Positions 22,023-47,628 of a stretch of DNA of 64,000 nt are shown here, one piece after another. The DNA is from Pseudoduganella lutea (GTDB lineage Bacteria; Pseudomonadota; Gammaproteobacteria; Burkholderiales; Burkholderiaceae_D), in contig NZ_CP035913.1 of NCBI RefSeq assembly GCF_004209755.1, positions 3,348,001 to 3,412,000 on the forward strand, in the 5' to 3' direction. A program made the translations under genes and the position numbers. Position 1 is the stretch's first letter. Each line of letters starts with the position of its first letter. The notes beneath the pieces are model-generated. The model was not told where the DNA came from. It did not search any database and was given only the letters and a program-made list of their open reading frames with translations.

Positions 22023-25000
22023 ATGAGTATCGTCACCAGTATGACAACCGCGCAGATCGCTGGTCTGACCACTGCGCAAATCGCAGCGTTGGCCACGGCA
22101 GATATTGCCGGACTCAACTCAGATCAGTTCCAGGCGCTGACCACCACGCAGATCGGGGCCTTCACGACCGCGCAGGTGCCGGCATTCACGACGGCCCAGG
22201 TGGCGAGCTACATCACGACCAACCAGGTCGTTGCGCTGACGTCGACCCAGGCTGGCGCGCTGACGACGAACCAGGCCGCCAATCTGTCCACCAGCGCGAT
22301 CGCCGCCCTGGAAACGGCGGATCTCGCCGCCCTGCGCACTTCCAGCATCGCCGCGCTGCGCACCCAGCAGGTCGCCGCGCTGACGACGAACCAGGTCGGC
22401 GCGCTCGGCACGCAGCAGGTAGCCGCACTCTCCACGAACAACCTCGCCAACGCGCTGACGACCAACCAGGTCGTGGCGCTGAAGTCGGATCAGCTCGGCG
22501 CATTCACGACCGCGCAATTCGGTGCACTGTCCACCAACAGCGTGGCAGCGATCGAAACGGCCGACCTCGGCGGCCTGAAGACGAACGTGATCGCGTCGCT
22601 GAAGTCCACGCAAGTCGGCGCCCTGACCACGAACCAGATCGCTGCCCTGGGCACGACCCAGGTAGTCGCGCTGAGCACTGCCGGCCTGCAAGGCCTGACG
22701 ACGAACCAGATCGTTGCGCTGACGAGCAACCAGGCATCCGTGCTGAGCTCCAGCCAGGTCGGTACCCTGTCCACCACCTCGATCGCCGCCATTGAAACGG
22801 CCGACATGGCCGCACTGAAGACGGCCACTGTCGCCGGCCTGAAATCGGCGCAGGTGGCTGCGCTGACGACCAACCAGGTCGTGGCGCTGTCGACCGCGCA
22901 AGCCAATGCGCTGAGCTCCGCACAGATTGCCGGCCTGACGACCAATGGCGTCGCCGCCATGGAAACGGCCGACATGGCCGCGTTGAAGACGTCCACCATC
23001 GCCGGCCTGTCGACCACGCAAGTCGCCGCAATGACCACCAACCAGGTCGGCAACCTGGCCACGACGCAGATCGCCGCGCTGACCACCAACCAGATGGCCA
23101 ATGGCCTGACCACGAACCAGGTGGTGGCACTGACGTCGAACCAGCTGGGCGCGCTGTCCACCAACCAGTTCAATGCCCTGTCGACCAACAGCATCGCCGC
23201 CATCGAAACGGCTGACATCGGCGGCCTGAAGACCAGTACCATCGCTGCACTGAAATCCACGCAGGTTGGCGCATTGACGACCAACCAGGTCGGTGCCCTG
23301 GGCACGAACCAGGTAGCCGTGCTGAGCACCGCCGCCCTGCAAGGCCTGACCACGAACCAGGTCGTCGCCCTGTCGAGCAACCAGGCATCCGTGCTGACCT
23401 CGGCACAAGTGTCGAGCCTGTCGACCGCTTCGCTTGCCGCAATGGAAACGGCCGACCTGGCCGCACTGAAGACGTCGAGCATCGCTGGCCTGAAGTCGGC
23501 ACAGCTGGCCGCCCTGACCACCAACCAGGTCGTGGCACTGTCGACCGCGCAAGCCAACGCGCTGAGCTCGGCCCAGATCGCCGGCCTGTCCACCAGTGGC
23601 GTTGCCGCCATGGAAACGGCTGACCTGGCTGCGCTGAAGACCTCGACCATCGCCGGCCTGAGCACCACGCAAGTGGCCGCACTGACCACCAACCAGGCCA
23701 GCAGCATTGCCACCACCCAGATCGCGGCACTGACCACGAACCAGATCGCCAACGGCCTGACCACGAACCAGATCGTGGCCCTGTCGTCGAACCAGCTGGG
23801 CGCGCTGTCGACCGCGCAATTCGGCGCACTGTCGACCACCTCCGTTGCCGCCATCGAAACGGCCGATATCGTCGGCCTGAAGACGAACGTCATCGCAGCG
23901 CTGAAGTCGACCCAGGTCGGCGCGCTGACCACGAACCAGATCGTGGCGCTGACCACCACCCAGGCCAATGCGCTGACCACCGTGCAGATCGCCGGCCTGT
24001 CCACCAGCGGCATCGCCGTCATGGAAACGGCTGACCTGGCTGCACTGAAGACGTCGAGCATCGCCGGCCTGAGCACCATGCAAATGGCCGCGCTGACGAC
24101 GAACCAGGTCGGCAACCTGGCCACCGCGCAGATCGCCGCGCTGTCGACGAACAACCTGGCCAACGGCATCACCACGAACCAGATCGTGGCCATGTCGTCG
24201 AACCAGCTCGGTGCCCTGTCCACCACGCAGTTCGGCGCACTGTCGAGCAATGCCATCGCCGCCATCGAAACGGCCGATATCGTTGGCCTGAAGACCAACG
24301 TGATCGCTTCGCTGAAGTCGACCCAGGTTGGCGCACTGACGACGAACCAGATCGGTGCCCTGGGCACGAACCAGGTCGTCGCCCTGAGCACCGCCGCACT
24401 GCAAGGCCTGACCACGAGCCAGGTCGTCGCCCTGTCGAGCAACCAGGCATCCGTGCTGAGCTCGGCACAAGTGTCGAGCCTGTCGACCGCCGCCGTTGCA
24501 GCGATCGAAACGGCCGACCTGGCCGCGCTGAAGACGGCAACGATCGGCGGCCTGAAGTCGGCGCAGCTGGCGGCGCTGACCACCAACCAGGTCGTCGCCC
24601 TGACCACCGCGCAAGCCAACGCCCTGAACTCGGCCCAGATCGCCGGCCTGTCCACCAGCGGCATCGCCGCCATGGAAACGGCTGACCTGGCTGCACTGAA
24701 GACGTCGAGCATCGCCGGCCTGAGCACCATGCAGATGGCCGCGCTGACGACGAACCAGGTCGGCAACATGGCGACCGCGCAGATCGCCGCGCTGACGACG
24801 AACAACCTGGCCAACGGCATCACCACGAACCAGATCGTGGCCCTGTCGTCGAACCAGCTGGGCGCGCTGTCTACCGCGCAGTTCGGTGCACTGTCGACCA
24901 GCGGTGTCGCCGCCATCGAAACGGCGGACATCGTCGGCCTGAAAACCAACGTGATCGCTTCGCTGAAGTCGACCCAGGTTGGCGCATTGACCACGAACCA

Positions 25001-28000
25001 GATCGGCGCACTGGGCACGAACCAGGTCGGCGCGCTGACCACGGCAGCCCTGCAAGGCCTGACCACGAGCCAAGTCGTCGCCCTGTCGAGCAACCAGGCA
25101 TCCGTGCTGAGCTCGGCACAAGTGTCGAGCCTGTCGACCGCCGCTGTCGCAGCGATCGAAACGGCTGACCTGGCCGCCCTGAAGACGGCAACGATCGGCG
25201 GCCTGAAGTCGGCACAGCTGGCCGCGCTGACTACCAACCAGGTTGTCGCCCTGACCACCGCGCAAGCCAACGCCCTGAACTCGGCCCAGATCGCCGGCCT
25301 GTCCACCAGCGGCATCGCCGCCATGGAAACGGCTGACCTGGCCGCCCTGAAGACGTCGAGCATCGCCGGCCTGAGCACCATGCAGATGGCGGCGCTGACG
25401 ACGAACCAGGTCGGTAACATGGCCACTGCGCAGATCGCCGCGCTGACGACGAGCAACCTGGCCTACGGCATCACCACGAACCAGATCGTGGCCCTGTCGT
25501 CGAACCAGCTGGGCGCGCTGTCCACCGTGCAGTTCGGTGCACTGTCGACCAGCGGTGTCGCCGCCATTGAAACGGCCGACATCGTTGGCCTGAAGACCAG
25601 CGTCATCGCGTCGCTGAAGTCCTCGCAAGTCGGCGCACTGACGACGAACCAGGTCGGCGCCCTCGGCACGAACCAGGTCGGCGCGCTGACCACGGCGGGC
25701 CTGCAAGGCCTGACCACGAGCCAGGTCGCCGCCCTGTCGAGCAACCAGGCGTCCGTGCTGAGCTCGGCACAAGTGTCGAGCCTGTCGACCGAAGCGGTCG
25801 CTGCCATCGAAACGGCTGACCTGGCCGCACTGAAGACGGCAACGATCGCCGGCCTGAAGTCCTCCCAACTGGCCGCCCTGACGACGAACCAGGTCGTGGC
25901 GCTGTCGACCGCGCAAGCCAATGCCCTGAGCTCGGTCCAGATCGCCGGCTTGTCCACCAACGGCATCGCCGCCATGGAAACGGCTGACCTGGCCGCACTG
26001 AAGACGTCGAGCATCGCCGGCCTGAGCACCATGCAGATGGCTGCGCTGACGACGAACCAGGTCGGTAACATGGCGACCGCGCAGATCGCCGCGCTGACGA
26101 CGAACAACCTGGCCAACGGCATCACCACGAACCAGATCGTGGCCCTGTCGTCGAACCAGCTGGGCGCACTGTCCACCGCGCAATTCGGTGCACTGTCGAC
26201 CAATGCCGTCGCCGCCATCGAAACGGCCGATATCGTCGGCCTGAAGACCAACGTGATCGCTTCGCTGAAGTCGACCCAGGTTGGCGCACTGACGACGAAC
26301 CAGATCGGCGCCCTGGGCACGAACCAGGTCGGCGCGCTGACCACGGCGGCCCTGCAAGGCCTGACCACGAGCCAGGTCGTCGCCCTGTCGAGCAACCAGG
26401 CATCCGTGCTGAGCTCGGCACAAGTGTCGAGCCTGGCGACCGCCTCGCTTGCCGCGATGGAAACGGCCGACCTGGCCGCGCTGAAGACGGCAACGATTGG
26501 CGGCCTGAAGTCGGCACAGCTGGCCGCGCTGACCACCAACCAGGTCGTCGCCCTGACCACTGCGCAAGCCAATGCGCTGAGCTCGGCCCAGATCGCCGGC
26601 CTGTCCACCAGCGGCATCGCCGCCATGGAAACGGCTGACCTGGCCGCACTGAAGACGTCGAGCATCGCCGGCCTGAGCACCATGCAAATGGCTGCGCTGA
26701 CGACGAACCAGGTCGGCAACATGGCGACCACGCAGATCGCCGCGTTGACGACGAACAACCTGGCCAACGGCATCACCACGAACCAGATCGTGGCCCTGTC
26801 GTCGAACCAGCTGGGCGCACTGTCCACCGCGCAGTTCGGTGCACTGTCGACCAGCGGTGTCGCCGCCATCGAAACGGCCGATATCGTCGGCCTGAAAACC
26901 AGCGTGATCGCTTCGCTGAAGTCGACCCAGGTTGGCGCACTGACGACGAACCAGATCGGTGCCCTGGGCACGAACCAGGTAGCCGCCCTGAGCACTGCCG
27001 CGCTGCAAGGCCTGACCACGAGCCAGGTTGTCGCCCTGTCGAGCAACCAGGCATCCGTGCTGACTTCGGCACAAGTGTCGAGCCTGGCGACCGCCTCGCT
27101 TGCCGCAATGGAAACGGCCGACCTGGCCGCGCTGAAGACGTCGAGCATCGCTGGCCTGAAGTCGGCACAGCTGGCCGCGTTGACCACCAACCAGGTCGTC
27201 GCGCTGACCACCACGCAAGCCAACGCGCTGAGCTCGGCCCAGATCGCCGGCCTGTCCACCAGCGGCATCGCCGCCATGGAAACGGCTGACCTGACCGCAT
27301 TGAAGACGTCGAGCATCGCCGGCCTGAGCACCATGCAGATGGCTGCGCTGACGACGAACCAGATCGGCAACATGGCGACCACGCAGATCGCCGCGCTGAC
27401 GACGAACAACCTGGCCAACGGCATCACCACGAACCAGATCGTGGCCCTGTCGTCGAACCAGCTGGGCGCACTGTCCACCGCGCAGTTCGGTGCACTGTCG
27501 ACCAGCGGTGTCGCAGCGATCGAAACGGCCGACATCGGCGGCCTGAAGACCAGTGTCATCGCGGCATTGAAGACGACGCATGTCGCCGCGCTGACGACCG
27601 GCCAGCTCGCTGCGCTGGGCACGGGGCAGATCGCCGCCCTGAGCACGGCCAACGTGGCAAACGGCCTGACGACCGCCCAGGTGGCATCGCTGACGACCAC
27701 CCAGGCCAACGCGCTGACCTCGGCGCAGGTTGGAGCGTTGACGACCAGCCAGATCGTTGCACTGACCACCAACGGCATCGTGGCGTTGAAGACCTCGACG
27801 ATCTCTGCCCTGAAGAGCGAGCAGGTGGCGGCGCTGTCGACGGCGCAGCTGACGTCGATCGAAACGTCCGACCTGGCCGCGCTGAAGACCGGCGCGATCA
27901 AGGGCCTGACCACCACGCAGGTGGCGGCACTGACGACGAACCAGGTCAAGGCACTGACCAGCGCGCAGATCTGCGCCTTGACCTCGACGCAGGTGCAGGC

Positions 28001-28829
28001 ACTGACTTCCTCGCAGATCGGTGCGATGGGCAACCCGGGCTTCTACAGCCCGGTGATCCTGGACCTGAACGGCAACGGCATCGAAACGCTGTCCCAGTCC
28101 GCAGGCGTGCAGTTCGACCTGCTGGGCAACGGCGAGACGCTGGACACCGGCTGGGTGGGTGGCGGCGATGGCCTGCTGGTCCTGGACCGTAACGGCGATG
28201 GCGCCATCAACGACGGCTCCGAGCTGTTCGGCGAAGGCACCACGCTGTCCAACGGCCAGAAGGCCAGCGACGGCTACCAGGCGATGGCCGAACTGGATAC
28301 GGATGGCGACGGTGCCCTGACGGCCGGCGACTCCGCGTTCAGCAAGCTGAAGGTGTGGGTGGATGGCAATGCCGACGGTGTCAGCGATGCGGGCGAACTG
28401 AAATCGCTGGCCGAGCTGAACATCACGAAGCTGAGCCTGGAGACGCAGGCCACCGCGACGATCAACAACGGCAACATCGTTGGCCTGACGTCGAGCTACG
28501 AGACGGCCGATGGCCAGACGCACGCAGCGGCCGACGTGTGGTTTGCGGCAAGCAAGTCCACGACCGGCAACACCAGCCTGTCGGCGGCCATCGCTTCCTA
28601 CGGCAGCACGTCGCCGGTCCCGGCCAGCGGCGCGACGAAGCTGGACGTGTCGGCGGCAACCAACCTGTCGGCCAGCGTGGCCAGCATGGCGGCATCGCTG
28701 AAATCGTTCGATGACGCCACGAAGCTGCGCACCGGCGCCGAATCGATGGCCTCGACCGACGACACGCTGCGCCTGAAGGCCCTGCAGGGCGCCAGCGCAC
28801 ACGGCTTCCTGGCCAGCCCGAACAAGTAA
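22023..28829 (+). CDS. Giant octapeptide-repeat protein, predicted type I secretion substrate
   Basis: A 2268-residue protein with no Sec signal. Residues from about 8 to 2000 are nearly pure octapeptides of pattern [T/S/K/E]-T-x-Q-[V/I/L]-x-A-L, for example TTNQVVAL, SSNQASVL, STAQFGAL. By length this is close to 250 octads. Charged octads of type ETADLAAL-KTSSIAGL recur at regular places; almost all others are uncharged. From residue 2001 the sequence changes to VILDLNGNGIETL, DRNGDGAINDGSELFG, DTDGDGALTAG and DGNADGVSDAGELKS. These are four EF-hand-like calcium loops of the kind found at the C-terminus of many RTX/type I substrates, followed by a roughly 150-residue tail rich in Ser, Thr and Ala. 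No RTX GGxGxD nonapeptides are seen. The type I exporter genes follow directly. The role is probably surface or matrix (inference); there is no known activity. Confidence 0.85.
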   Translation: MSIVTSMTTAQIAGLTTAQIAALATADIAGLNSDQFQALTTTQIGAFTTAQVPAFTTAQVASYITTNQVVALTSTQAGALTTNQAANLSTSAIAALETADLAALRTSSIAALRTQQVAALTTNQVGALGTQQVAALSTNNLANALTTNQVVALKSDQLGAFTTAQFGALSTNSVAAIETADLGGLKTNVIASLKSTQVGALTTNQIAALGTTQVVALSTAGLQGLTTNQIVALTSNQASVLSSSQVGTLSTTSIAAIETADMAALKTATVAGLKSAQVAALTTNQVVALSTAQANALSSAQIAGLTTNGVAAMETADMAALKTSTIAGLSTTQVAAMTTNQVGNLATTQIAALTTNQMANGLTTNQVVALTSNQLGALSTNQFNALSTNSIAAIETADIGGLKTSTIAALKSTQVGALTTNQVGALGTNQVAVLSTAALQGLTTNQVVALSSNQASVLTSAQVSSLSTASLAAMETADLAALKTSSIAGLKSAQLAALTTNQVVALSTAQANALSSAQIAGLSTSGVAAMETADLAALKTSTIAGLSTTQVAALTTNQASSIATTQIAALTTNQIANGLTTNQIVALSSNQLGALSTAQFGALSTTSVAAIETADIVGLKTNVIAALKSTQVGALTTNQIVALTTTQANALTTVQIAGLSTSGIAVMETADLAALKTSSIAGLSTMQMAALTTNQVGNLATAQIAALSTNNLANGITTNQIVAMSSNQLGALSTTQFGALSSNAIAAIETADIVGLKTNVIASLKSTQVGALTTNQIGALGTNQVVALSTAALQGLTTSQVVALSSNQASVLSSAQVSSLSTAAVAAIETADLAALKTATIGGLKSAQLAALTTNQVVALTTAQANALNSAQIAGLSTSGIAAMETADLAALKTSSIAGLSTMQMAALTTNQVGNMATAQIAALTTNNLANGITTNQIVALSSNQLGALSTAQFGALSTSGVAAIETADIVGLKTNVIASLKSTQVGALTTNQIGALGTNQVGALTTAALQGLTTSQVVALSSNQASVLSSAQVSSLSTAAVAAIETADLAALKTATIGGLKSAQLAALTTNQVVALTTAQANALNSAQIAGLSTSGIAAMETADLAALKTSSIAGLSTMQMAALTTNQVGNMATAQIAALTTSNLAYGITTNQIVALSSNQLGALSTVQFGALSTSGVAAIETADIVGLKTSVIASLKSSQVGALTTNQVGALGTNQVGALTTAGLQGLTTSQVAALSSNQASVLSSAQVSSLSTEAVAAIETADLAALKTATIAGLKSSQLAALTTNQVVALSTAQANALSSVQIAGLSTNGIAAMETADLAALKTSSIAGLSTMQMAALTTNQVGNMATAQIAALTTNNLANGITTNQIVALSSNQLGALSTAQFGALSTNAVAAIETADIVGLKTNVIASLKSTQVGALTTNQIGALGTNQVGALTTAALQGLTTSQVVALSSNQASVLSSAQVSSLATASLAAMETADLAALKTATIGGLKSAQLAALTTNQVVALTTAQANALSSAQIAGLSTSGIAAMETADLAALKTSSIAGLSTMQMAALTTNQVGNMATTQIAALTTNNLANGITTNQIVALSSNQLGALSTAQFGALSTSGVAAIETADIVGLKTSVIASLKSTQVGALTTNQIGALGTNQVAALSTAALQGLTTSQVVALSSNQASVLTSAQVSSLATASLAAMETADLAALKTSSIAGLKSAQLAALTTNQVVALTTTQANALSSAQIAGLSTSGIAAMETADLTALKTSSIAGLSTMQMAALTTNQIGNMATTQIAALTTNNLANGITTNQIVALSSNQLGALSTAQFGALSTSGVAAIETADIGGLKTSVIAALKTTHVAALTTGQLAALGTGQIAALSTANVANGLTTAQVASLTTTQANALTSAQVGALTTSQIVALTTNGIVALKTSTISALKSEQVAALSTAQLTSIETSDLAALKTGAIKGLTTTQVAALTTNQVKALTSAQICALTSTQVQALTSSQIGAMGNPGFYSPVILDLNGNGIETLSQSAGVQFDLLGNGETLDTGWVGGGDGLLVLDRNGDGAINDGSELFGEGTTLSNGQKASDGYQAMAELDTDGDGALTAGDSAFSKLKVWVDGNADGVSDAGELKSLAELNITKLSLETQATATINNGNIVGLTSSYETADGQTHAAADVWFAASKSTTGNTSLSAAIASYGSTSPVPASGATKLDVSAATNLSASVASMAASLKSFDDATKLRTGAESMASTDDTLRLKALQGASAHGFLASPNK
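22959..27275 (+). repeat. Higher-order 651-nt tandem repeat in the giant protein gene
   Basis: The anchor ATGGAAACGG recurs at 22959, 23610, 24021, 24672, 25323, 25974, 26625 and 27276. All intervals are exactly 651 nt (217 residues, 27 octads of which one is 9 long) except one of 411. Each unit holds three charged E-T-A-D octads, at octads 5, 15 and 25 counted from a TTNQVVAL octad. The units are very similar at nucleotide level, including synonymous sites, whereas the repeats before 22959 and after about 27560 are more diverged. Confidence 0.93.
23610..24020 (+). repeat. Shortened repeat unit lacking exactly ten octads
   Basis: This copy is 411 nt, that is 240 nt (80 residues, 10 octads) shorter than its neighbours. 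The junction reads KSTQVGAL followed by TTNQIVAL, which joins one charged sub-repeat to the equivalent point of the next. This points to in-frame recombination between sub-repeats. Confidence 0.85.
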
Positions 28830-28873
28830 TCGGGCACCTCCGACGGCCGGCGATCCCGGCCGAAGTGAGCGAA

Positions 28874-28905
28874 ACGGCAAGACATGCGTCTTGCCGTTTT
28901 TTTTT
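28874..28905 (+). terminator. Terminator of the giant repeat protein gene
   Basis: A perfect 10-bp stem ACGGCAAGAC-atgc-GTCTTGCCGT is followed by a run of T. It separates the substrate gene from the exporter genes, so the exporter probably has its own promoter or depends on read-through. Confidence 0.92.
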
Positions 28906-29012
28906 ATTGTTCTCCATCCCGACTTTCACCCCGCTGTTCGAGGTTTTGAGTGGCGCCTGAACCGCCATGCCTGGGGTAGAATCCTTTGGCGAAAACATTG
29001 CGTCAAAGCACA

Positions 29013-31157
29013 ATGCCCGAAAAATTTGCCCATACCGCCATCCAGTGCCTGACCGCCGTCGCTCAACACCACGGGCTGCAGATCAACCCCGAGCGTTTGA
29101 TCGACGAGTATGCGCTGGGCGCGGAGGAGCCGAATGACGGGGCGTTGCTGCGCATTGCCGGCGACATCGGCCTGAAAGCAAAGGCGGACAAGCTCACGTG
29201 GCAGCGCCTGCTGCACCAGCAGGGCGTGTATCCGCTGCTGGCGCGCCTCGATGAAGGCAATATGGTCATCATCGTCGGCAGCGAAGGCGAAGGTGCAGAT
29301 GGCAAGGTGGCCGTGCTGAACCCGGCCGCCAACAATGGCCAGGTCGTGCTGGTGGGGCATGACGATTTCATGCGCCACTGGTCGGGCCAGGTGCTGTTCG
29401 TCAAGCGCCAGCACAAGATGACGGACCCGGCGCAGCCGTTCGGCCTGAAGTGGTTCATACCCGAACTGCTGAAGCAGAAGACGGCATTCCGCGACATCCT
29501 GATCGCCGCCATCGTGATGCAGGTGCTTGCATTGGCGTCGCCGATCTTCTTCCAGCTCGTGATCGACAAGGTGCTGACGCACCAGAGCTATAGCACGCTG
29601 TGGGTGCTGACTGCCGGCATCGTGCTGGCCCTCGTGTTCGACGCGCTGTTCGGCTACCTGCGCCAGGTGCTGATCCTGGCGGCCACCAACAAGATCGACA
29701 TGCGGCTCACGCGCCGCGTGTTCTCGCACCTGCTGTCGCTGCCGATCGATTATTTCGAGACCACCACGGCCGGCATCATCACGCAGCACATGCAGCAGCT
29801 GGAAAAGATCCGCAACTTCCTTACCGGCCGGCTGTTCTTCACCGGTCTGGACCTGCTGTCGCTGCTGGTCTTCCTGCCGATCCTGTTCTCTTATTCGTTC
29901 AAGCTGACGATGGTCGTGCTGCTGTTCGCGGCGCTGATCGCCGGGGTGGTGATGGCGATGATCCCCACGTTCCAGCGCCGGCTCAAGGCGCTCTACACGG
30001 CCGAAGGCATGCGCCAGGCAATGCTGGTGGAGACCATCCACGGCATGCGCACCGTGAAGGCGCTGGCGATCGAACCTTCGCAGCGCCGCGACTGGGACCA
30101 GCGCTCGGCCGAGGCGATCACGATGCATTTCCGGGTGGGCCAGATCTCCATCACCGGTAACGCCGTCACGGATTTCCTGGGCAAGCTGCTGCCGGTGGTG
30201 CTGATCGTGCTGGGCGCGCAGGGCGTGTTCGACGGCACGCTGACGATCGGCGCGCTGATCGCGTTCCAGATGCTGTCGCAGCGTGTGACCTCGCCACTCA
30301 TCTCGATCGTGGGCCTGGTCAACGAATACCAGGAAACGGCGCTATCCGTGAAAATGATGGGCGAGGTGATGAACCGCGCGCCGGAAGGCCGCGCGGGCGC
30401 GGGCGGCCTGCGCCCCATCCTGGAGGGAGAAATCAAGTTCGAGGATGTCACGTTCCGCTACCCGGGCAGCCAGACCAATGCGCTCGACCGCACCAGCTTC
30501 ACGATCACGCCCGGCACCGTGGTCGGCATCGTCGGTCGCAGCGGCTCGGGCAAGACCACGCTGACAAAAGTGATCCAGGGCCTGTATGCGGTGCAGGAAG
30601 GGATCGTGCGCTTCGACGGCTTCGATGCGCGCGAGATCGAACTGGCGCACCTGCGCCGCCAGATCGGCGTGGTCCTGCAGGAGAACTTCCTGTTCCGCGG
30701 CACGATCCGCGAAAACCTGCTGATCACCAAGCCCGACGCCACGTTCGAGGAAATCAACGAAGCGGCCGCCGCCGCTGGCGCCGACGAATTCATCGAGCGC
30801 ATGCCGATGGGCTATGACACGATGCTGGAAGAGAACGCCTCGAATCTCTCCGGCGGCCAGAAGCAGCGGCTGTCGATCGCCCGTTCGCTGCTGGCCAAGC
30901 CGCGCATCCTGATCCTCGACGAAGCCGCTTCCGCGCTCGACCCTGAAAGCGAGGCGATCTTCATCCGCAACCTGTCGAAGATCGCCGTCGGCCGCACGGT
31001 CGTGATGATCTCGCACCGCCTGTCCACCCTCGTCAACGCGGATGCGATCCTCGTCATGCAGCGGGGCCGCCTGGTCGACGCCGGCCGCCACGAAGAACTG
31101 CTCACGCGCAGCGATACCTACCAGCACCTATGGAACCAGCAAACAAGCCACCTGTGA
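29013..31157 (+). CDS. Type I secretion ABC transporter (HlyB/LapB-type permease-ATPase)
   Basis: A protein of about 714 residues. The N-terminal 125 residues form a C39-peptidase-like domain. The catalytic Cys position (normally DCG before ACLxM) is replaced (HTAIQCLTAVAQHHG), and the His is missing too, so it is a non-cleaving C39-like domain as in HlyB. Six membrane helices follow (about residues 150-430). The ATPase has Walker A GRSGSGKTTLTKVI, signature NLSGGQKQRLSIARS, Walker B RILILDEAASALD and the switch His in VMISHRLSTL. It exports the upstream giant protein by strong context. I chose ATG 29013; a TTG at 28986 would add nine residues. Its 3' end overlaps the adaptor gene by 28 bases. 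Confidence 0.93.
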   Translation: MPEKFAHTAIQCLTAVAQHHGLQINPERLIDEYALGAEEPNDGALLRIAGDIGLKAKADKLTWQRLLHQQGVYPLLARLDEGNMVIIVGSEGEGADGKVAVLNPAANNGQVVLVGHDDFMRHWSGQVLFVKRQHKMTDPAQPFGLKWFIPELLKQKTAFRDILIAAIVMQVLALASPIFFQLVIDKVLTHQSYSTLWVLTAGIVLALVFDALFGYLRQVLILAATNKIDMRLTRRVFSHLLSLPIDYFETTTAGIITQHMQQLEKIRNFLTGRLFFTGLDLLSLLVFLPILFSYSFKLTMVVLLFAALIAGVVMAMIPTFQRRLKALYTAEGMRQAMLVETIHGMRTVKALAIEPSQRRDWDQRSAEAITMHFRVGQISITGNAVTDFLGKLLPVVLIVLGAQGVFDGTLTIGALIAFQMLSQRVTSPLISIVGLVNEYQETALSVKMMGEVMNRAPEGRAGAGGLRPILEGEIKFEDVTFRYPGSQTNALDRTSFTITPGTVVGIVGRSGSGKTTLTKVIQGLYAVQEGIVRFDGFDAREIELAHLRRQIGVVLQENFLFRGTIRENLLITKPDATFEEINEAAAAAGADEFIERMPMGYDTMLEENASNLSGGQKQRLSIARSLLAKPRILILDEAASALDPESEAIFIRNLSKIAVGRTVVMISHRLSTLVNADAILVMQRGRLVDAGRHEELLTRSDTYQHLWNQQTSHL

Positions 31158-32509
31158 TGGGCGAACGCCGCTCGGCCGCCCGCCGCATGGGCGAGGAGAC
31201 CGAGGTCGAGTTCCTGCCCGACGCGGACGCGATCGAACGCATGCCGCTGCCGCGCTACATCCGGCTGACGCTGCACCTGCTTGTACTGGCCCTCCTGCTA
31301 TTCATCCTGTGGGCCAGCTTCTCGAAGATGGAAACGGTCGTCACCGCCCATGGCCGGCTCGTGAATCCCACGGCGAACATCGTCGTGCAGCCGCTGGAAA
31401 CTTCGATCATCCAGCGTGTCCACGTGCGCGCGGGCCAGGTGGTGAAGCAGGGCGATGTACTCGCCGAGCTGGACCCCACGTTCACGCAGGCCGACGAACA
31501 GCAGCTGCGCAATCGCCTGTCCAGCCTGGATACGCAGGTGGCGAGCCTGCAGGCCGAGCTGGCCGGTACGCGCCCGCCGTCCGGTGCCGGCGGCGGTGCC
31601 GACAACGCGCTGCAGGCGCAGCTGTCCGGCGAACGCCAGGCCAATCTCGATGCGCAGAAACGCCGGCTGGAAGAAAACGTGCAGCGCCTGCGCGCCACCA
31701 TCGAAACCAACCGGCGCGACCAGACCGTGCTTGCCGAGCGCCTGAAGTCGCTGCAGCAGATCGAGTCGATGCAGGAGCAACTGGTCGCGGAAAACTTCGG
31801 CGCCAAGATGCAGTTGCTGGAAGCACGCGACCGTCGCCTCGAAGTGGAGCGCAGCCTGATCAACGGCCGCAGCCGCGACCTGGAACTGGCCAAGGAACTG
31901 GCCGCCGCCGAAGCCGAGCGTGCCGCGCTGAACCGCGGCTGGCGGCAAAAGACACTGGAAGACCTGCTGAACGTGACGCGCGAGCGCGACAGCATCAACG
32001 AGCAACTGGCCAAGGCCGACAAGCGGCGCCAGATGGTGCGCGTGGCGGCGCCGGTCGACGCGGTGGTGCTGGAAATGGGCAAGCTCTCGCAAGGCTCGAT
32101 CGTGCGCGAGGCGGAAGCGATGTTCACACTGGTACCGCTGGGCGCGGAGCTGGAAGCGGAAGTGGAAATCGATTCGGCCGACATCGGCTACATCAAGGCG
32201 AATGCGCCCGTGCACCTGAAGCTCGATGCGTTCCCGTTCCAGAAGCACGGCGCCCTGGACGGCAAGCTGCGCACCGTCAGCTCCGATTCGTTCAAGCGCG
32301 AGCAGGTAACGCCGGGGCAGGGCACGGATGCGTACTACCTGGCGCGCGTCGACTACGGCAATGCCGGCCTGCGCCGGATGGAGGCAGGCACGCGCCTGCT
32401 GCCGGGGATGACGGTGACGGCGGAAATCGTTACCGGCGAGCGCACGATCATGTCTTATCTGCTGTGGCCGCTGACGAAGGCAATGGACGAATCGATCCGC
32501 GAGCCGTGA
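31130..32509 (+). CDS. Type I secretion membrane fusion protein (HlyD family)
   Basis: A 459-residue periplasmic adaptor. A cytoplasmic N-terminus of about 45 residues precedes one membrane helix (LHLLVLALLLFILWASF). The lipoyl/barrel-sandwich half ETVVTAHGRLVNPTANIVVQ follows, then about 200 residues of alpha-helical coiled coil (for example RLKSLQQIESMQEQLVAENF), a second lipoyl half and the HlyD beta-barrel with VEIDSADIGYIKANAPVHLK. It links the inner-membrane ABC transporter to a TolC-type outer-membrane channel, which is not encoded in this window. Start at ATG 31130 inside the end of the transporter gene implies coupled translation. The region to the convergent operon (32510-32633) is short and non-coding. 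Confidence 0.93.
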   Translation: MEPANKPPVMGERRSAARRMGEETEVEFLPDADAIERMPLPRYIRLTLHLLVLALLLFILWASFSKMETVVTAHGRLVNPTANIVVQPLETSIIQRVHVRAGQVVKQGDVLAELDPTFTQADEQQLRNRLSSLDTQVASLQAELAGTRPPSGAGGGADNALQAQLSGERQANLDAQKRRLEENVQRLRATIETNRRDQTVLAERLKSLQQIESMQEQLVAENFGAKMQLLEARDRRLEVERSLINGRSRDLELAKELAAAEAERAALNRGWRQKTLEDLLNVTRERDSINEQLAKADKRRQMVRVAAPVDAVVLEMGKLSQGSIVREAEAMFTLVPLGAELEAEVEIDSADIGYIKANAPVHLKLDAFPFQKHGALDGKLRTVSSDSFKREQVTPGQGTDAYYLARVDYGNAGLRRMEAGTRLLPGMTVTAEIVTGERTIMSYLLWPLTKAMDESIREP

Positions 32510-32633: not shown

Positions 32634-33902
32634 TCATGCGATGGCGCGGTATCCGCTGAGCAGTGACTGGTTGCTCCATAAATAATCCCATTCGCCAAAG
32701 CGGCCGCAGGTTGCGATGCCGGCGCCCGCGGCCCAGTCGCGCACGGTGGCGCGGTGCGCTTCCATGCCCCGTTCGAAGATCACGTTGCCGTACGGGAGAC
32801 GGCGGTGGTCGAGCACGACGATGTCGCCAGGCTGCGCGATGCCCATCTTGCCCAGTGCGTACACCGTGTTGTCCTTCAGCTTTTCCGCATCATGTGCGGT
32901 ACCGGTGCCGTAGTTGTAGATCTCGAACTGCAGCGAGCTGCAGCCGGGTGGCGCATTGTCGGGCGATTTCACGGAGGGCGAGTAGGCGCGGGCGGCGAGG
33001 ATGTCTTCGTCGTAGATGTAGAACCACAGGTCCTTCACGATCGGCTTGTCGAAGCCCACCGAGACAAGGTCGATCGACGTGGCGTGCAGCCGCGTGCCGG
33101 CTTCGCGCACTTCGCCGGGCGCATCCGCCACCAGTTGCACGAGCACGGGCAGCGGCAGCGTGCTGACCAGCGTGCCATACGCCACCTGCCGGCCGTTCGC
33201 GAAATGTACCGTGCGGGAGGTGGTATCGATCGAGGTCACCCTGTGGCCTGTGCGGATGTCGGACTGCGCGATCAGCGGTTCGATGAAGGCCTTGTAGCCG
33301 CCTTCGCGCGGGTAGCGCATCTCCTTCGTGTAGTACGTGTTCGGCGTGTCGCCGGTCAGCGCGCCGAACAGGATTTCGTCCAGCTCGGCGCGGCGCATCC
33401 GGTTGCCAACCCATTCGGTCGACAGGTGGGAGGCCGGCACGGCCCAGTACTTGACGGTGTAGCGCAACGGATAACGTTCGGCGATCGCGTCGCCATACTG
33501 GTGCCGCAGCCAGCTGTCGTAATCGTCGCCGGCCAGCACGTTCGGGCGCGCCAGGAACGACTTGATCAGCGCCACCCGCTCTTCGGGCGGCAGCGGGAAC
33601 AGGTTGTTCTGCACCGGGTGCTTCAGCCAGTAACCGTTGTCCCAGCAGTAGGAGTCGGCCGGGTGCGTCAGGTAGGGCGTACTGTCGAAGATCGCCCGCA
33701 CTTCGGGCTCGCTGGCGAACGACAGGTGCACCGCATGGTCGAAGCGGAACCCATCCACGGTGAAGTTGTCCAGCAGGCCGCCGGCGCTGTCGCGCGCCTC
33801 GAAGATCACGGCCTGCCGGCCCAGCTCACGGGCCTTCAGGGCCGCGCCCAGGCCGGCGATGCCGCCACCGAGGATGACGATGTCGATGTATTCCATGCTC
33901 AT
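32634..33902 (-). CDS. FAD-dependent oxidoreductase, UDP-galactopyranose-mutase/protoporphyrinogen-oxidase-like
   Basis: A 422-residue flavoprotein starting MSMEYIDIVILGGGIAGLGA, a classical dinucleotide-binding GxGxxG fold followed by FEARDSAGGLLDNF. The second flavin segment near the C-terminus is seen in ATCGRFGEWDYLWSNQSLLSGY. This class is common in O-antigen and exopolysaccharide loci and is often annotated as amine oxidase or UDP-galactopyranose-mutase-like; the reaction here is unknown. It is the last gene of the 14-gene minus-strand operon. It starts with an ATGA overlap at the stop of the RmlD-like gene. The second Met (33896) is an alternative start. Confidence 0.82.
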   Translation of the reverse strand: MSMEYIDIVILGGGIAGLGAALKARELGRQAVIFEARDSAGGLLDNFTVDGFRFDHAVHLSFASEPEVRAIFDSTPYLTHPADSYCWDNGYWLKHPVQNNLFPLPPEERVALIKSFLARPNVLAGDDYDSWLRHQYGDAIAERYPLRYTVKYWAVPASHLSTEWVGNRMRRAELDEILFGALTGDTPNTYYTKEMRYPREGGYKAFIEPLIAQSDIRTGHRVTSIDTTSRTVHFANGRQVAYGTLVSTLPLPVLVQLVADAPGEVREAGTRLHATSIDLVSVGFDKPIVKDLWFYIYDEDILAARAYSPSVKSPDNAPPGCSSLQFEIYNYGTGTAHDAEKLKDNTVYALGKMGIAQPGDIVVLDHRRLPYGNVIFERGMEAHRATVRDWAAGAGIATCGRFGEWDYLWSNQSLLSGYRAIA

Positions 33903-34789
33903 TTTCCCGCCGATTCTCCATTGACATGAACGGCGAGTCCCGTCGCCAGGTAGGTGGCGAGACTGTCGCGCCAGTCCGGCATGGGCGGCCAGCCCAGCGT
34001 GTCGAATTTCCAGTTCGCCGCCATTTCGTTGTCCGAGACACGTGCCTTGCGGTTGAACGCGGCGGCGCTGGTGGGCTGCACGTCCAGCGGCAGACCGGCG
34101 AGGCGCACGATCTCGCTCACGTATTCATGGCGCGAAGCGGTACCGTTATTGACACAGTTGAACGTGCCCGCCAGGCCGGAGGCGGCCAGGTCGAGCATCC
34201 GCGCCGCCACGTCGTCGCTCCAGCATGGTATGCCGCGCTGCTGCGTGTTCGAGCCCATGGCCGTGCCGGCGGCCAGCGCGGCACGCGCTTCGTCGATACG
34301 GCGCGCCACGAAATTCTTGGGATTCGCAGGCGGTCCCCCGAACAGCCAGCCCGTGCGCACCACGAGGTTGCGCGGGCTGGCGGTAAGCACGCGTTCCTCC
34401 GCCAACGCCTTGCTGCGGTGGTGGTGGGTGGTTGGCTGCACGGCATCGTACTCGCAGTAAGGCTCGCTGCCGTGCGCACCATAGACGCCGGTGCTCGAAA
34501 CGAACAGCATCCTGGCGTTCGCACGCACGGCGCCCGTGGCGATCAGTTCCGTCAACAGCAGGTTGTCGCGGTAGCATGCCGGTGGGTCGGCCTCGCATGC
34601 CTCGACATTGGTATTGGCGGCAGCGTGGATGACGAGATCGCATTCGCCGTCGAGCAGGGCGTCCAGCAATGCCGGCAGCTCGGGCAGCGGCGGGCGGGGC
34701 ATCGGCCGGCATGTCCATCCGCGCGCGGTGGCGGCGGCATTGATGGCGGAGCCCAGCAAACCGCCGGCACCGGTGAGCAGGATCTTCAT
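33899..34789 (-). CDS. NAD-dependent epimerase/reductase of RmlD-like SDR type
   Basis: A 296-residue short-chain dehydrogenase. The N-terminal MKILLTGAGGLLGSAINAAA is the cofactor-binding GxxGxxG. The catalytic-type Ser-Thr-x-x-Tyr occurs as FVSSTGVYGAHG, and the Lys of YxxxK may be in HHHRSKALAEE. IHAAANTNVEACEADP resembles the RmlD family (dTDP-4-dehydrorhamnose reductase). Next to an RmlC-like cupin and the CDP-glucose enzymes it probably reduces a CDP-4-keto-6-deoxy sugar (inference). It overlaps its neighbours on both sides by ATGA. Confidence 0.82.
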   Translation of the reverse strand: MKILLTGAGGLLGSAINAAATARGWTCRPMPRPPLPELPALLDALLDGECDLVIHAAANTNVEACEADPPACYRDNLLLTELIATGAVRANARMLFVSSTGVYGAHGSEPYCEYDAVQPTTHHHRSKALAEERVLTASPRNLVVRTGWLFGGPPANPKNFVARRIDEARAALAAGTAMGSNTQQRGIPCWSDDVAARMLDLAASGLAGTFNCVNNGTASRHEYVSEIVRLAGLPLDVQPTSAAAFNRKARVSDNEMAANWKFDTLGWPPMPDWRDSLATYLATGLAVHVNGESAGK

Positions 34790-35202
34790 GGGAGCGGAAA
34801 GGTGGACAGGTCCACGTTGCGGGCCTCGGCCGGATCGTGTGCGATGCTGGCCAGGTTGCACACCAGGTTGGTGCCCGCGCCGGTGCCGGTAAACGCCATC
34901 CACCAGCCTGGCGGCACCGTCAGGCGCGCATAGTTGCCTTCGCCCAGCGTGTGGCTGGCGGTGCGGCCGGTGCCCGCATCGTGAAGGTGGAACGTGACTT
35001 CACCGGCGACCACGACCAGGTTCATCACCATCCGCGTGTGCTGCTTCCATCCCTTCGTCACACCATGGAGCACGGTCGTGAAATAGGCTTCGCCGAAGCC
35101 CGCATAACCTTCATCCGTGGCCTTCAGCGCATGGTAGACGTCGCCCTTCGGATGGGCGATGCGTGCCAGCGGTGTCAGCGTGCAGGGCGTCAGCGGGTCC
35201 AT
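34786..35202 (-). CDS. RmlC-like sugar 3,5-epimerase family (cupin) protein
   Basis: A 138-residue cupin. The region FTTVLHGVTKGWKQHTRMVM corresponds to the RmlC RG-x-H-x-Q segment. LTVPPGWWMAFTGTGAGTNL matches the strand with the PPGxxHGF motif, here with Met-Ala instead of His-Gly. The end of the barrel is shortened compared with RmlC (about 180 residues). It may act on a CDP-4-keto-6-deoxyhexose made by RfbF/RfbG (inference). The start at ATG 35202 overlaps the rfbG end by 13 bases; its end overlaps the RmlD-like gene by ATGA. Confidence 0.72.
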   Translation of the reverse strand: MDPLTPCTLTPLARIAHPKGDVYHALKATDEGYAGFGEAYFTTVLHGVTKGWKQHTRMVMNLVVVAGEVTFHLHDAGTGRTASHTLGEGNYARLTVPPGWWMAFTGTGAGTNLVCNLASIAHDPAEARNVDLSTFPLP

Positions 35203-36290
35203 GCCAGTCCGCGTGCCGCCGCCTGTTCCTCGTACTCGCCGATCTGTGCCATCGTGAGCGCATGCATGTCGGCCTGTTCGCGGTAATAGCGGTAGTACCA
35301 TTCGCTGACGAGGCGCACACAGTTCGCATAGTCCAGGTTCGCTTCCCAGCGCAGGTGGAACAGTGCCTTGTCGCAGTTCAGCTTCAGCAGGCCCGCTTCA
35401 TGGAACGGGATGTTCCCGGTCACCTCGTAGGCCTGGTCGGGGCTGGCGAAGTGCCAGTGGCGCGACAGGTCGCCCAGCAGCTCGAGCACGGTGCGGCTCT
35501 GCTCCGCACGCGGGCCGAAGTTGAACGCCTCGCCGGACAAGGCGGGATTGCGGGACAGGGCCGCGCCCAGCGTCAGGTAGCCGGACAGCGGCTCGAGCAC
35601 GTGCTGCCAGGGCCGCGTGGCCTGCGGGCTGCGGATCTCGACCTTCTTTCCCTCCGACCAGTTGCGCATGCAGTCCACCACGATGCGATCCTTCGCCCAG
35701 TCGCCACCGCCGATGACGTTGCCGGCGCGCCCGCTGGCCAGGCGCACCTTGCAGTCCGGCGCACGGAAGAACGACCAGTAATACGCATGGATGATGACCT
35801 CGGCCGCGCCCTTCGAGCCGCTGTACACGTCGCGGCCGCCGATGTGGTCCGTTTCGCGGTAGCCCCACAGCCATTCGACGTTTTCATAGCACTTGTCGGA
35901 CGTGATCATCACCGCCACGCATTCGTGGTCCAGCAGGCGCAGCGCCTCGAGCACGTTGGTGGTGCCGATCACGTTCGTCGTGATCGTGTCCACCGGCTCG
36001 GCGTACGAGACGGAGACGATCGGCTGCGCCGCCAGGTGGAACACGAAGTCGGGCTGGAACGACGCGATCGCATTCTTGACGGTGTCGAGATCGCGCACGT
36101 CGCCGAAATGGTGCTCGATGCGGCCTTCGAGACCGGTCTCCTCGAAGATCGAAGGTTGCGTGGGAATGCAGTCGGACAAGCCTGCCACGCGCGCGCCCAG
36201 TCTGAGCAGCCACATCGCCAGCCACGTACCCTTGAACCCCGTATGGCCGGTGACCAGCACCTTCTTGCCGCGGTAGATATCGCCGAACAT
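35190..36290 (-). CDS. rfbG: CDP-glucose 4,6-dehydratase
   Basis: A 366-residue extended SDR that converts CDP-glucose to CDP-4-keto-6-deoxyglucose. The cofactor motif is VLVTGHTGFKGTWLAMWLL. The catalytic stretch has TSDKCYENVEWLWGYRETD (Thr-Ser-Asp-Lys) and RDVYSGSKGAAE with YxxxK. GRAGNVIGGGDWAKDRIVVD is a family signature. The ATG at 36290 is preceded by GGGAG, and the stop of rfbF overlaps this leader region. It lies directly after rfbF, its pathway partner. Confidence 0.95.
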   Translation of the reverse strand: MFGDIYRGKKVLVTGHTGFKGTWLAMWLLRLGARVAGLSDCIPTQPSIFEETGLEGRIEHHFGDVRDLDTVKNAIASFQPDFVFHLAAQPIVSVSYAEPVDTITTNVIGTTNVLEALRLLDHECVAVMITSDKCYENVEWLWGYRETDHIGGRDVYSGSKGAAEVIIHAYYWSFFRAPDCKVRLASGRAGNVIGGGDWAKDRIVVDCMRNWSEGKKVEIRSPQATRPWQHVLEPLSGYLTLGAALSRNPALSGEAFNFGPRAEQSRTVLELLGDLSRHWHFASPDQAYEVTGNIPFHEAGLLKLNCDKALFHLRWEANLDYANCVRLVSEWYYRYYREQADMHALTMAQIGEYEEQAAARGLAWTR

Positions 36291-36292
36291 CG

Positions 36293-37066
36293 TCACTCCC
36301 AGGTTTTCCATGGCGCACGGCCGCTTTTCCACAAATCCTCCAGATGCATCTTGTCGCGCAGTGTATCCATCGGCTGCCAGAAATCGTGGTGGAAAAATGC
36401 CTGCATCTGCCCGTCAAGCGCCAGCCGTTCCATGGGCTGCTTTTCCCACGTGGTGGCGTCGCCCTCGACATAGTCGATCGCCTGAGGCGACAGCACGAAG
36501 AAGCCGCCATTGATCCAGGCGCCGTCGCCTTGCGGTTTTTCCTGGACGCTGGTGATGCGCTCGCCTTCCAGGTTCAGCGCGCCGAAGCGTCCGGGTGGCT
36601 GGATCGCCGTCAGCGTGGCCAGCTTGCCATGCGCGCGGTGGAAGGCGATCAGGTCGGTGATGTTGACGTTCGATACGCCGTCGCCATACGTGAAACAGAA
36701 AGCTTCCTCATCCTTGACGTATTCGCGCACGCGCTTCAGGCGCCCGCCGGTCAGCGTTTCGTCGCCGGTGTCGACCAGCGTGACTTTCCATGGCTCGGCG
36801 CTGCGCGTATGCACTTCCATGCGGTTGTTCTGCATGTCGAACGTCACGTCGGACGTGTGCAGGAAATAGTTGGCGAAGTACTCCTTGATGACGTAGCCCT
36901 TGTAGCCGCAGCAGATCACGAAGTCGTTGACGCCGTGCGCGGAATACCCCTTCAGGATGTGCCACAGGATCGGCTTGCCGCCGATTTCCACCATTGGCTT
37001 GGGTTTCAGCGAGGTTTCTTCGCTGATGCGGGTGCCGAGGCCACCCGCGAGGATCACAGCTTTCAT
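36293..37066 (-). CDS. rfbF: Glucose-1-phosphate cytidylyltransferase
   Basis: A 257-residue nucleotidyltransferase producing CDP-glucose from CTP and glucose 1-phosphate. The N-terminal signature [20 protein letters not shown] and the internal [20 protein letters not shown] and [20 protein letters not shown] match Rfb[21 protein letters not shown] is also conserved. Immediately followed by rfbG. No CDP-4-keto-6-deoxyglucose 3-dehydrase (rfbH/ddhC) is present, so the product is probably not a 3,6-dideoxy sugar. Confidence 0.95.
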
Positions 37067-37866: not shown

Positions 37867-38934
37867 TCAGCGCGGCGCCTCGTTGTAGATTTCCTCGCAT
37901 TCGGCCTGGATGAAGCGGGCCGTGTCCGCAGCCGGGTCGAATGCCGGCTGGGCCGGGGCTGCCGCGACGGCCGTGCCGTCGTCGGGCGACAGCAGCGTGG
38001 CGATCAGGCTGCCCATCACGTGTTCGACGCCACGCTGTGCCACGTCGCGCAGGTCGGACGCCAGATATTGGCCGAACGAAGCGGCGTGGCTGATGATCTC
38101 GTACGAAGGGAAATATTGCACATAATCGTAGCGCGGCTCGACGGCGCCGACGGCGGCGCGCAGCACCGATTTCGAATAGCTCGACGCGACCAGCACATTG
38201 TCGTTCGTGTACGTCGCCACCAGCGGCACCGGCGATACGGTCAGGATGATCTTCACGGCCAGGTTCACGCCGCGCACCGCCTGCACCAGGGCATCGAGAT
38301 CGCTCTCGACCTCGGCACAGGTCAGGTTGCGGAACAGGTGGATGGCCGGGTCGAACACGCCTTTCGCGGTGCCCGGGCAGGCCGGATAGGTGTGGCCACC
38401 CGCCGCGTGGTACCAGCTTTCGGTCAGTCCCAGCGTAAAGACGAACACTTCGGCCGTCGTGAACATCGTGCGCACGCAGGCCAGGTGAAAGCGCCGGTCG
38501 TGCCGCGCTTCGTCCCGTGTGGCGAAGCCGTCCGGCACGGCATTCGGTCGCATCAGGTCGTACCAGCGGCCGTCGTGCTCCGCGTAGTCGTCGATCACGG
38601 GCATCTGTCCGAATGCCTGGCGAAACAGTTCGAGCGCCTGGCGCGCCGTGTAGATGTTGCCGTAACGGGCGGTGAACAGTTCGTAGCTAGCCGTTTCGCC
38701 GCCGTGCGCCACGGCCAGCGGATGCGGCTGTTCGGCGAGGTAGCGGCCGCAGCCGGCATGGTTCAGGTAGCGCGCGATGTGCTGCGCGAAGCAGCTGCCG
38801 GCGGTGGCGATGCGGTCGCTGCGCCGTATCATGAATTTCGGCGTGCCGCACAATTGCAGGTCGCGCCATGGCGTTTTCGCCACGAAGCGGTTCCAGAAGT
38901 TCCTGTCGGGCAGGTTGGAATACGGATGCATCAT
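37867..38934 (-). CDS. GSCFA domain protein
   Basis: A 355-residue protein with the name-giving motif in RIATAGSCFAQHIARYLNHA near residues 42-61. GSCFA proteins belong to the SGNH/GDSL-like hydrolase superfamily and are found in polysaccharide loci, where they may add or remove acyl groups (family knowledge; activity not shown here). FVFTLGLTESWYHAAGG and VKIILTVSPVPLVATYT match conserved blocks, with a Glu-Ser and a Ser-Pro-Val-Pro turn. Start at ATG 38934 or the adjacent ATG 38931 (both after a GGGGGG stretch). It overlaps the preceding gene's stop. Confidence 0.85.
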   Translation of the reverse strand: MMHPYSNLPDRNFWNRFVAKTPWRDLQLCGTPKFMIRRSDRIATAGSCFAQHIARYLNHAGCGRYLAEQPHPLAVAHGGETASYELFTARYGNIYTARQALELFRQAFGQMPVIDDYAEHDGRWYDLMRPNAVPDGFATRDEARHDRRFHLACVRTMFTTAEVFVFTLGLTESWYHAAGGHTYPACPGTAKGVFDPAIHLFRNLTCAEVESDLDALVQAVRGVNLAVKIILTVSPVPLVATYTNDNVLVASSYSKSVLRAAVGAVEPRYDYVQYFPSYEIISHAASFGQYLASDLRDVAQRGVEHVMGSLIATLLSPDDGTAVAAAPAQPAFDPAADTARFIQAECEEIYNEAPR

Positions 38935-39768: not shown

Positions 39769-40269
39769 TCAGTCCTCGTGGGGCGACGTTGGTGGCGGCG
39801 CCTCGGCCGGATCCAGGTAGCGGACCAGGCGTGCGGGGTTGCCGGTGACCAGCGCATGCGGCGGCACGTCGCGGGTCACCACGGCGCCCGCACCCACCAT
39901 CGCATGGTGGCCGATCGTCACGCCCGGCAGGATCACGGCGCCGGCGCCGATCGACGCGTGATGTTCGACCACCGTTTGCGGGAAGGCGTCGGGATACTGC
40001 TTCGAGCGCGGATAGCGGTCGTTGGTGAACGTGGCGTTCGGGCCGATGAACACATGGTCGCCTACCCGCAATCCATCCCACAGGTAGACGCCGCACTTGA
40101 CGGTGACGCTGTCGCCGACGATCACATCGTTCTCGACGAGGCAATGGGCGTTGATGTTGCAGTGGTCGCCGATCACGGCACCCTGCAGCACCACGCAGAA
40201 TTGCCAGACGGTGGTCGAAGGACCGATCTGCGTGCTGTGCACGTCGGCCAGTGGATGGATTTTCGCCAT
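39769..40269 (-). CDS. Hexapeptide-repeat acetyltransferase, FdtC/QdtC-like
   Basis: A 166-residue left-handed beta-helix acyltransferase. The segment [20 protein letters not shown] followed by [20 protein letters not shown] and [17 protein letters not shown] is very close to FdtC/QdtC/WlbB enzymes, which N-acetylate dTDP-3-amino-3,6-dideoxyhexoses with acetyl-CoA. The RxPxSKQYPD loop and the following beta-helix coils ([20 protein letters not shown]) are typical. It sits directly after the aminotransferase and ketoisomerase genes of the same pathway. Start ATG 40269. Confidence 0.85.
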
Positions 40270-40277
40270 GGCGTTTC

Positions 40278-44030: not shown

Positions 44031-44046
44031 GATGTGCCTCTTATTT

Positions 44047-47572: not shown

Positions 47573-47628
47573 AAGGTCACTATTTTATGTATACTGGCGG
47601 ATACCCTTTCATTTGAGCAGCATTCATC

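Follow-up and report, generated by a model that had tools for sequence, protein, structure and literature searches.

A giant ALTTAQ-repeat protein of Pseudoduganella lutea, encoded beside a type I exporter and near a GT41 glycosyltransferase gene, as a candidate mucin-like glyco-solenoid

The 64,000-nucleotide stretch of the Pseudoduganella lutea genome that was analysed here (the window) encodes a 2268-residue protein that consists largely of octapeptide repeats, followed by the genes of a type I exporter and by a sugar-biosynthesis cluster with a glycosyltransferase of the GT41 family. We read this protein, as a probable though not a secure interpretation, as a type I-exported alpha-solenoid that is served by a dedicated cytoplasmic O-glycosyltransferase, ends in a calcium-folding module incapable of cleavage, and forms a mucin-like rod. 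The repeat, its predicted fold, the identity of the module, the lost Asp, the recurrent gene order and the co-localisation with GT41 are results of computation. Repeat, exporter and module are each of a known kind; the pairing with a dedicated GT41 enzyme is the new part.

Results

The octad array and its family

The reading frame of the protein (Table 1) starts with an ATG preceded by AGGAGAAATAA, a likely ribosome-binding site, and contains no internal stops. Using a weight matrix seeded with the octad pattern of a preliminary description of this DNA, we segmented residues 8-2002 into 248 octads; the only interruptions are 11 single residues, each of them Ile or Leu, at positions 64, 145, 362, 579, 716, 933, 1150, 1367, 1584, 1801 and 1882. 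That description had counted about 250 octads of the form x-T-x-Q-hydrophobic-x-A-L; the array stands, but the consensus is looser, with the strict form (xTxQhxAL) matched by 70 of the 248 octads and a relaxed form by 114. The second residue is Thr in 195 octads and Ser in the other 53, the fifth is always one of Ile, Val, Leu, Ala, Phe and Met, and Gln at position 4 and Leu at position 8 occur in 152 and 200 octads, respectively. Self-identity at a lag of eight residues extends to 773 positions, vs 232 +/- 14 in 1000 shuffled versions of the protein (maximum 276). A 217-residue unit, suggested at the outset, is borne out as a supra-unit of 27 octads plus one residue, with seven full copies plus one of 137 residues.

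Two further features had been read correctly from the letters: RTX nonapeptides are absent, as no RTX family (tandem glycine-aspartate-rich nonapeptides) appeared among Pfam and NCBIfam matches at E up to 1, and four loops near the C-terminus, given as D-x-N-x-D-G and better written D-x-[ND]-x-[DN]-G, start at residues 2014, 2055, 2092 and 2114. Because the octads begin at residue 8, there is no space for the N-terminal retention module of LapA-type retained type I adhesins, and the protein lacks one; in relatives with a visible start the octads likewise begin near it, with the exception of one locus (L075).

Table 1. Features of the window (positions within the window)
Feature	Positions	Strand	Remarks
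ALTTAQ-repeat giant protein, proposed type I substrate	22023..28829	+	2268-residue ORF; PF20080 E=0, 61 stretches
248 octads plus 11 single-residue insertions	22044..28028	+	residues 8-2002; short helix per octad predicted in the modelled parts
FrpC self-processing-module-like Ca-binding domain	28050..28553	+	residues 2010-2177; phmmer and Foldseek to 6sjw, ligand mapping
C-terminal tail, presumed secretion signal	28554..28826	+	residues 2178-2268; endings alike in many relatives; pLDDT mostly low
Intrinsic-terminator-like hairpin, 13 pairs plus T tail	28871..28900	+	between substrate and exporter genes
HlyB-type T1SS permease/ATPase, C39-like N-terminal domain	28986..31157	+	TIGR01846, PF00664, PF00005, PF03412; ATG at 29013 also possible
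HlyD-family periplasmic adaptor	31130..32509	+	TIGR01843 E 2e-91, 307 bits, above cut-off
FAD amine-oxidase-family protein, start of sugar/glycan cluster	32634..33902	-	PF01593; relatives near some ALTTAQ genes
RmlD-like nucleotide-sugar reductase	33899..34903	-	PF04321 E 1e-43
Nucleotide-sugar dehydratase-like (GDP_Man_Dehyd / Epimerase)	35190..36332	-	recurs near ALTTAQ genes
Sugar nucleotidyltransferase-like	36293..37066	-	PF00483; recurs
GSCFA-family protein	37867..39687	-	PF08885 E 4e-46
Hexapeptide-repeat transferase-like	39769..40557	-	PF00132
DegT/DnrJ/EryC1 sugar aminotransferase	40278..41528	-	PF01041 E 1e-121; recurs
Methyltransferase with weak glycosyltransferase-2 stretch	42711..44177	-	PF13489; PF00535 E 9e-5, below cut-off
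TPR plus GT41 (O-GlcNAc-transferase-type), C-terminal methyltransferase-like stretch; proposed octad glycosyltransferase	44047..46602	-	PF13844 E 6e-81

The preliminary description named no characterised protein of this build, but the octad region itself already has a family. The octads are the Pfam family PF20080, 'ALTTAQ repeat' (1528 bits vs a cut-off of 26.4; 61 stretches, E=0), from which the protein shows no sequence difference, and they also match the solved chain 9zem, 'HeliScrew4' (E 1.5e-13 and 2.8e-15), the best match by sequence among solved chains and perhaps, judged by its name, a designed or consensus protein. HeliScrew4 has 120 residues and often carries Pro at octad position 2, where the P. 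lutea protein has Thr or Ser throughout, so that the octad fold seems to have no need of a hydroxyl there. A functional paper on either the ALTTAQ repeat or HeliScrew4 was not found in the literature searched.

The repeat is carried by 49 of 294 genomes of the same bacterial family and by 6 of 369 genomes of the class, that of P. lutea included. Named relatives belong to Pseudoduganella, Duganella, a Burkholderiaceae MAG and a Leptothrix MAG (in one relative search octads were present in 11 of 24 loci), and relatives on plasmids to Cereibacter, Rhizobium, Shinella, Pseudomonas and others, with annotations that include 'hypothetical', 'heme utilization protein' and 'ICE nucleation protein'. In Pseudomonas asturiensis (L232, 6496-13938) the ALTTAQ stretch is split across three consecutive reading frames, one of them annotated as a heme utilization protein, and a Spiroplasma plasmid (L258, 7677-11142) encodes a distant octad-like protein with 26% identity to the unit and Ser or Thr at only 12% of its second positions.

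Exporter genes

As first described, an exporter pair directly follows the substrate gene. The HlyB-type gene matches TIGR01846 at E 3e-192, yet below the cut-off (640 of 726 bits). Across 31 loci centred on ALTTAQ or its C-terminal module (the window, L038-L048 and L064-L082), the ALTTAQ gene is followed on the same strand by HlyB in 17 (16 of the 30 related loci) and by both HlyB and HlyD in 15 (14 of the 30), while 14 of the 31 have no exporter gene downstream within the stretches examined, some of which end early. With this recurrent order, and with a C-terminal module that matches a type I-secreted protein, the early suggestion that the protein is the substrate of the adjacent type I exporter has gained support; the exporter linkage of the ALTTAQ gene is well supported, and the protein would be expected to leave the cell through HlyB/HlyD. 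No TolC-type gene was among the genes identified beside the exporter operon; two above the T1SS cut-off lie elsewhere in the genome. The hairpin between substrate and exporter genes, one of 11 such sites in the region vs 10.1 expected from shuffles (near the chance number), could yield more substrate than exporter.

A GT41 gene linked to the repeat

About 15 kb downstream of the ALTTAQ gene, inside the sugar-biosynthesis cluster, the protein encoded at 44047-46602 combines TPRs with a GT41 domain (PF13844, 272.8 bits, cut-off 25). It matches the X. campestris OGT XCC0866 (2jlb) at E 3e-92 over residues 67-619, and the TPR-GT41 build is common to both, but XCC0866 has 568 residues and is without the methyltransferase-like tail, which here matches 3cc8 over residues 659-810 (E 1e-7). 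Given this tail and the separate methyltransferase at 42711-44177, the glycan may be methylated. No second GT41 was found in the 7.5-Mb genome, as both genome matches fall in that reading frame. Two reading frames at 46427-47353 and 47260-48261 (minus strand) gave no Pfam or PDB match and have relatives adjoining ALTTAQ or GT41 genes in several loci. The idea of an extracellular fibre had been put forward without regard to this enzyme and the sugar cluster, which were overlooked; given both, some 15 kb away, a glycosylated rod is more likely than a bare fibre.

The association extends across genomes. In the family, a GT41 is present in 47 of 49 ALTTAQ-positive genomes (all but G255 and G284) vs 129 of 245 negative ones (Fisher p 5e-10, uncorrected for kinship), and within the genus in 20 of 20 positive vs 2 of 6 negative genomes, one of the latter two being weak. 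When 30 of the 49 were checked for distance, 27 had a GT41 within 30 kb of ALTTAQ (22 by distance search, plus G133, G047, G222, G171 and G155, added by hand from octad proteins seen otherwise); in G001 the two lie 521 kb apart and in G120 and G019 on other contigs. The GT41 falls inside the 10-21 kb stretch in only 2 of 30 relatives (L039 and L078, from the set L038-L048 and L064-L082) and is otherwise up to 30 kb off, so that in the family the two genes are linked by vicinity and need not be adjacent. Next-gene neighbours are seen in alpha-, beta- and gammaproteobacterial loci, and on annotated plasmids of C. sphaeroides, Pseudomonas and Rhizobium the ALTTAQ gene adjoins a gene of the O-GlcNAc-transferase or TPR type. 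In Cereibacter sphaeroides 2.4.1 and a strain derived from it, a plasmid carries the ALTTAQ gene next to GT41 and HlyB/HlyD. Among 72,556 plasmid records, 58 have ALTTAQ and 88 GT41, and at least 27 have both (60 of the 88 GT41 records being listed), 26 of them within 15 kb and 11 from C. sphaeroides, vs 0.07 expected if the two were independent and all plasmids alike; this co-occurrence is not independent of the GT41 idea, because the plasmids were its source. Carriers of ALTTAQ outside the family have a GT41 in 4 of 5 cases, on the ALTTAQ contig in one.

As a control, none of 20 GT41 loci from ALTTAQ-negative genomes had HlyB plus HlyD at limits of 300 and 150 bits, with a weaker pair in one (L243); these loci were picked among the better-scoring, and two Pseudomonas ALTTAQ loci would also fail the same limits. 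A tree built from 51 GT41s mostly separates the enzymes linked to ALTTAQ from the rest; L235 is misplaced in one direction, and L224 and one L222 copy (of two) in the other. One GT41 of the linked group comes from G106, a genome of the genus without ALTTAQ.

These linkages bear on the alternative that survives best, an unglycosylated rod with the same export, in which the products of the GT41 gene and the sugar genes would build a neighbouring surface glycan or act on some other protein, and surface functions simply cluster. Sugar genes and adhesins do often share islands, 15 of the 27 plasmid ALTTAQ loci examined have no GT41 in the stretch, and the enzyme could act on another acceptor, but it is the sole GT41 of its genome, and the co-occurrence, the co-localisation and the next-gene neighbours described above all speak for a tie to the repeat. 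Flagellin is one conceivable acceptor, since FlmG glycosylates flagellin (PMC7591256, in part) and the Pseudorhizobium GT41 also lies near flagellins; here, no flagellin gene lies closer than about 240 kb. We consider a bare rod unlikely, while giving it appreciable weight.

Position 2 as a candidate acceptor

Returning to the glycosylated rod, the octad itself offers a candidate site. Ser or Thr occupies position 2 in 80% and position 1 in 58% of 14,979 octads from 66 proteins. The segmentation behind these values takes no account of positions 1-4 and 6 and therefore misplaces some octads (for position 2 it gives 91% in the P. lutea protein, where the true value is 100%). In 27 plasmid loci, position 2 is Ser or Thr in a mean of 75% with a GT41 nearby (n=12) vs 55% without (n=15; p 0.016, uncorrected for kinship), and position 1 does not differ (71% vs 75%, p 0.23). 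The correspondence is imperfect in both directions, with low values despite a GT41 in Shinella PSBB067 (13%) and R. rhizoryzae (51%), and with 78-87% in five Rhizobium-group loci that have no GT41 in about 12 kb. As a sign that position 2 is the GT41 acceptor, this composition is suggestive only.

A C-terminal FrpC-like module without the cleavage Asp

Residues 2010-2177 resemble the self-processing module of FrpC from N. meningitidis (6sjw, 6sjx) both in sequence (phmmer E 1.3e-33 to 6sjw) and in fold (Foldseek E 5e-15, TM by target 0.81). The calcium ligands reported for FrpC are D419/D421/D423 with D456, D462-E474, D499-D511 and D521-E532 (PMC7078468, in part); these positions map to Asp, Asn or Glu, with the last Asp of the third site (counted in 6sjw one place before 511) aligned with D2103, and four calcium-binding sites are predicted from sequence and model. 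FrpC cuts its D414-P415 bond through the D414 carboxyl (same source, in part), and Ala at position 478 lowers its activity. The P. lutea protein keeps P415 and, unlike FrpC, has Ser2009 for D414 and Glu2071 for D478, with S-P at 2009-2010 in place of an Asp-Pro scissile bond; its module is C-terminal, and no RTX block was found. The resemblance of the C-terminus to type I substrates, as first noted, holds in that the region matches a type I-secreted protein, and has to be amended in that this is no merely generic likeness. With Ser in place of the scissile Asp, the module should fold with calcium without cutting.

The scissile position was compared across the window and L001-L196 after de-duplication, counting as octad-bearing any protein with at least four octad-pattern matches within 140 residues upstream. 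It is Ser (19) or Thr (52) and never Asp in all 71 readable octad proteins, that of P. lutea included (2 more unreadable), vs Asp 24, Ser 14, Thr 11, Glu 1 and Cys 1 in 51 readable non-octad proteins (2 unreadable), in a set that is no random sample, since its loci were found via the P. lutea protein or its repeat. A clip-and-link mechanism as in FrpC, by which the module would cleave itself with calcium and join the octad rod covalently to other proteins, is made very improbable by these substitutions at the positions of D414 and D478, even though the match to the FrpC module is strong (E 1e-33) and its fold and calcium sites are retained.

Several observations concern the wider distribution of such modules. 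The 25 of 51 readable non-octad domains that have S-P or T-P for D-P suggest that such modules may often lack the cleavage Asp. A second FrpC-module-like domain of the same genome (G000:C1:7274428-7274910; L063, L083) lies in a 1250-residue reading frame, with T-P and no octads by the pattern used. Two Pseudomonas ALTTAQ proteins do carry an SPM-like domain; it is absent from the alphaproteobacterial ALTTAQ proteins of L205, L207, L230, L231, L233, L234, L255, L257 and L259, which end in octads or a short tail. In Rhodovastum and Pseudorhizobium (L233, L234) the ALTTAQ gene adjoins flagellar genes and no FrpC-like module was found, so another export route is possible for these proteins.

Predicted fold of the octads

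AlphaFold2 models of residues 346-594 and 1877-2268 give each octad one short helix and so an alpha-solenoid, in support of the regular solenoid that had been considered possible. For residues 346-594 the best model has a pLDDT of 93.2, and three of five models have 58-59; for residues 1877-2268 (45 sequences) the five models average 82-85, with 11 of 13 ten-residue octad blocks at 90-97 and the remaining two at 74 and 81. The regularly stacked helices are seen in prediction only, and on these models we regard the alpha-solenoid fold of the array as well supported. The best Foldseek match to the octad model is the mesothelin ectodomain (E 6e-5), and HeliScrew4 was not among the best 50 matches listed in either fold search.

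Two further readings are very improbable. An ice-binding or ice-nucleating protein could be suspected from the regular spacing of Thr and from the 'ICE nucleation protein' annotation of some C. sphaeroides homologues, but the octads of known ice nucleators differ and form beta-solenoids, whereas the octad model is all-helical, and no ice-nucleation family appears among the Pfam or NCBIfam matches, so we give this reading even less credence than clip-and-link. A TALE-like nucleic-acid-binding solenoid, prompted by matches to Pfam TAL_effector (E 5e-9) and, in the profile search, to TALE chains (E 7e-11 at best) and by a similar short helix motif, is the least credible of all, as TALE repeats have a period of 33-35 and not 8, single stretches match weakly (best 0.08, to the top TALE chain; none passing in the Pfam search), and the gene adjoins an exporter.

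Discussion

In the mechanism that we propose for the glycosylated rod, the 2268-residue chain would be synthesised in the cytoplasm, where the TPR part of the GT41 protein of the sugar cluster would read the octads and the enzyme would O-glycosylate the position-2 hydroxyl, perhaps also position 1, before export. The chain would then be exported with its C-terminus in front, by way of HlyB/HlyD and a TolC from another locus, and once outside, the FrpC-like module would bind calcium and fold, thereby pulling or locking the chain. With Ser for the scissile Asp there would be no self-cleavage, and the rod would remain attached to its folded end, while the octads would stack one after another into a long superhelical, regularly sugar-coated, mucin-like rod. 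Octad glycosylation we infer from linkage only, and export itself, the site of modification, the calcium-driven folding and the mucin-like role are likewise inferences.

The proposal has partial precedents. HMW1C, a GT41 enzyme, modifies the large exported protein HMW1 in the cytoplasm before its export (PMC3983070, in part), and in this it resembles the present system; it differs in being an N-glycosyltransferase with a non-TPR N-terminal fold, and HMW1 is exported via Sec and two-partner secretion, whereas here a TPR-GT41 enzyme is encoded with type I exporter genes. FlmG of Caulobacter, a TPR-type flagellin O-glycosyltransferase, is alike in that its TPR part binds an exported substrate and its GT part glycosylates in the cytoplasm (PMC7591256, in part), and unlike in that the substrate is flagellin, the sugar pseudaminic acid and the route flagellar export.

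In the wider reading, ALTTAQ proteins would form a class of bacterial mucin-like glyco-solenoids, giant rods of one-helix octads that a dedicated cytoplasmic TPR-GT41 enzyme glycosylates at a fixed position in every octad, that leave by type I secretion and that a calcium-folding, cleavage-dead FrpC module nucleates outside. The set of substrate, HlyB/HlyD, GT41 and sugar genes would then make up a glycosylation system of a new, secretion-coupled kind, of which alpha-, beta- and gammaproteobacteria have their own forms; on this generalisation we are close to evenly divided. A repeat family that had a name and was functionally blank gains a fold by prediction, a probable way out of the cell and a modification that can be tested. 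The octad proteins also provide self-processing modules that naturally lack the cleavage Asp, in which calcium folding can be separated from cleavage during type I export. If the proposal is true, the octad rod would serve both to study the recognition of a regular solenoid acceptor by a TPR-GT41 enzyme and as a glycosylated scaffold of regular build, and the ALTTAQ proteins would be a bacterial counterpart of mucin-like coats.
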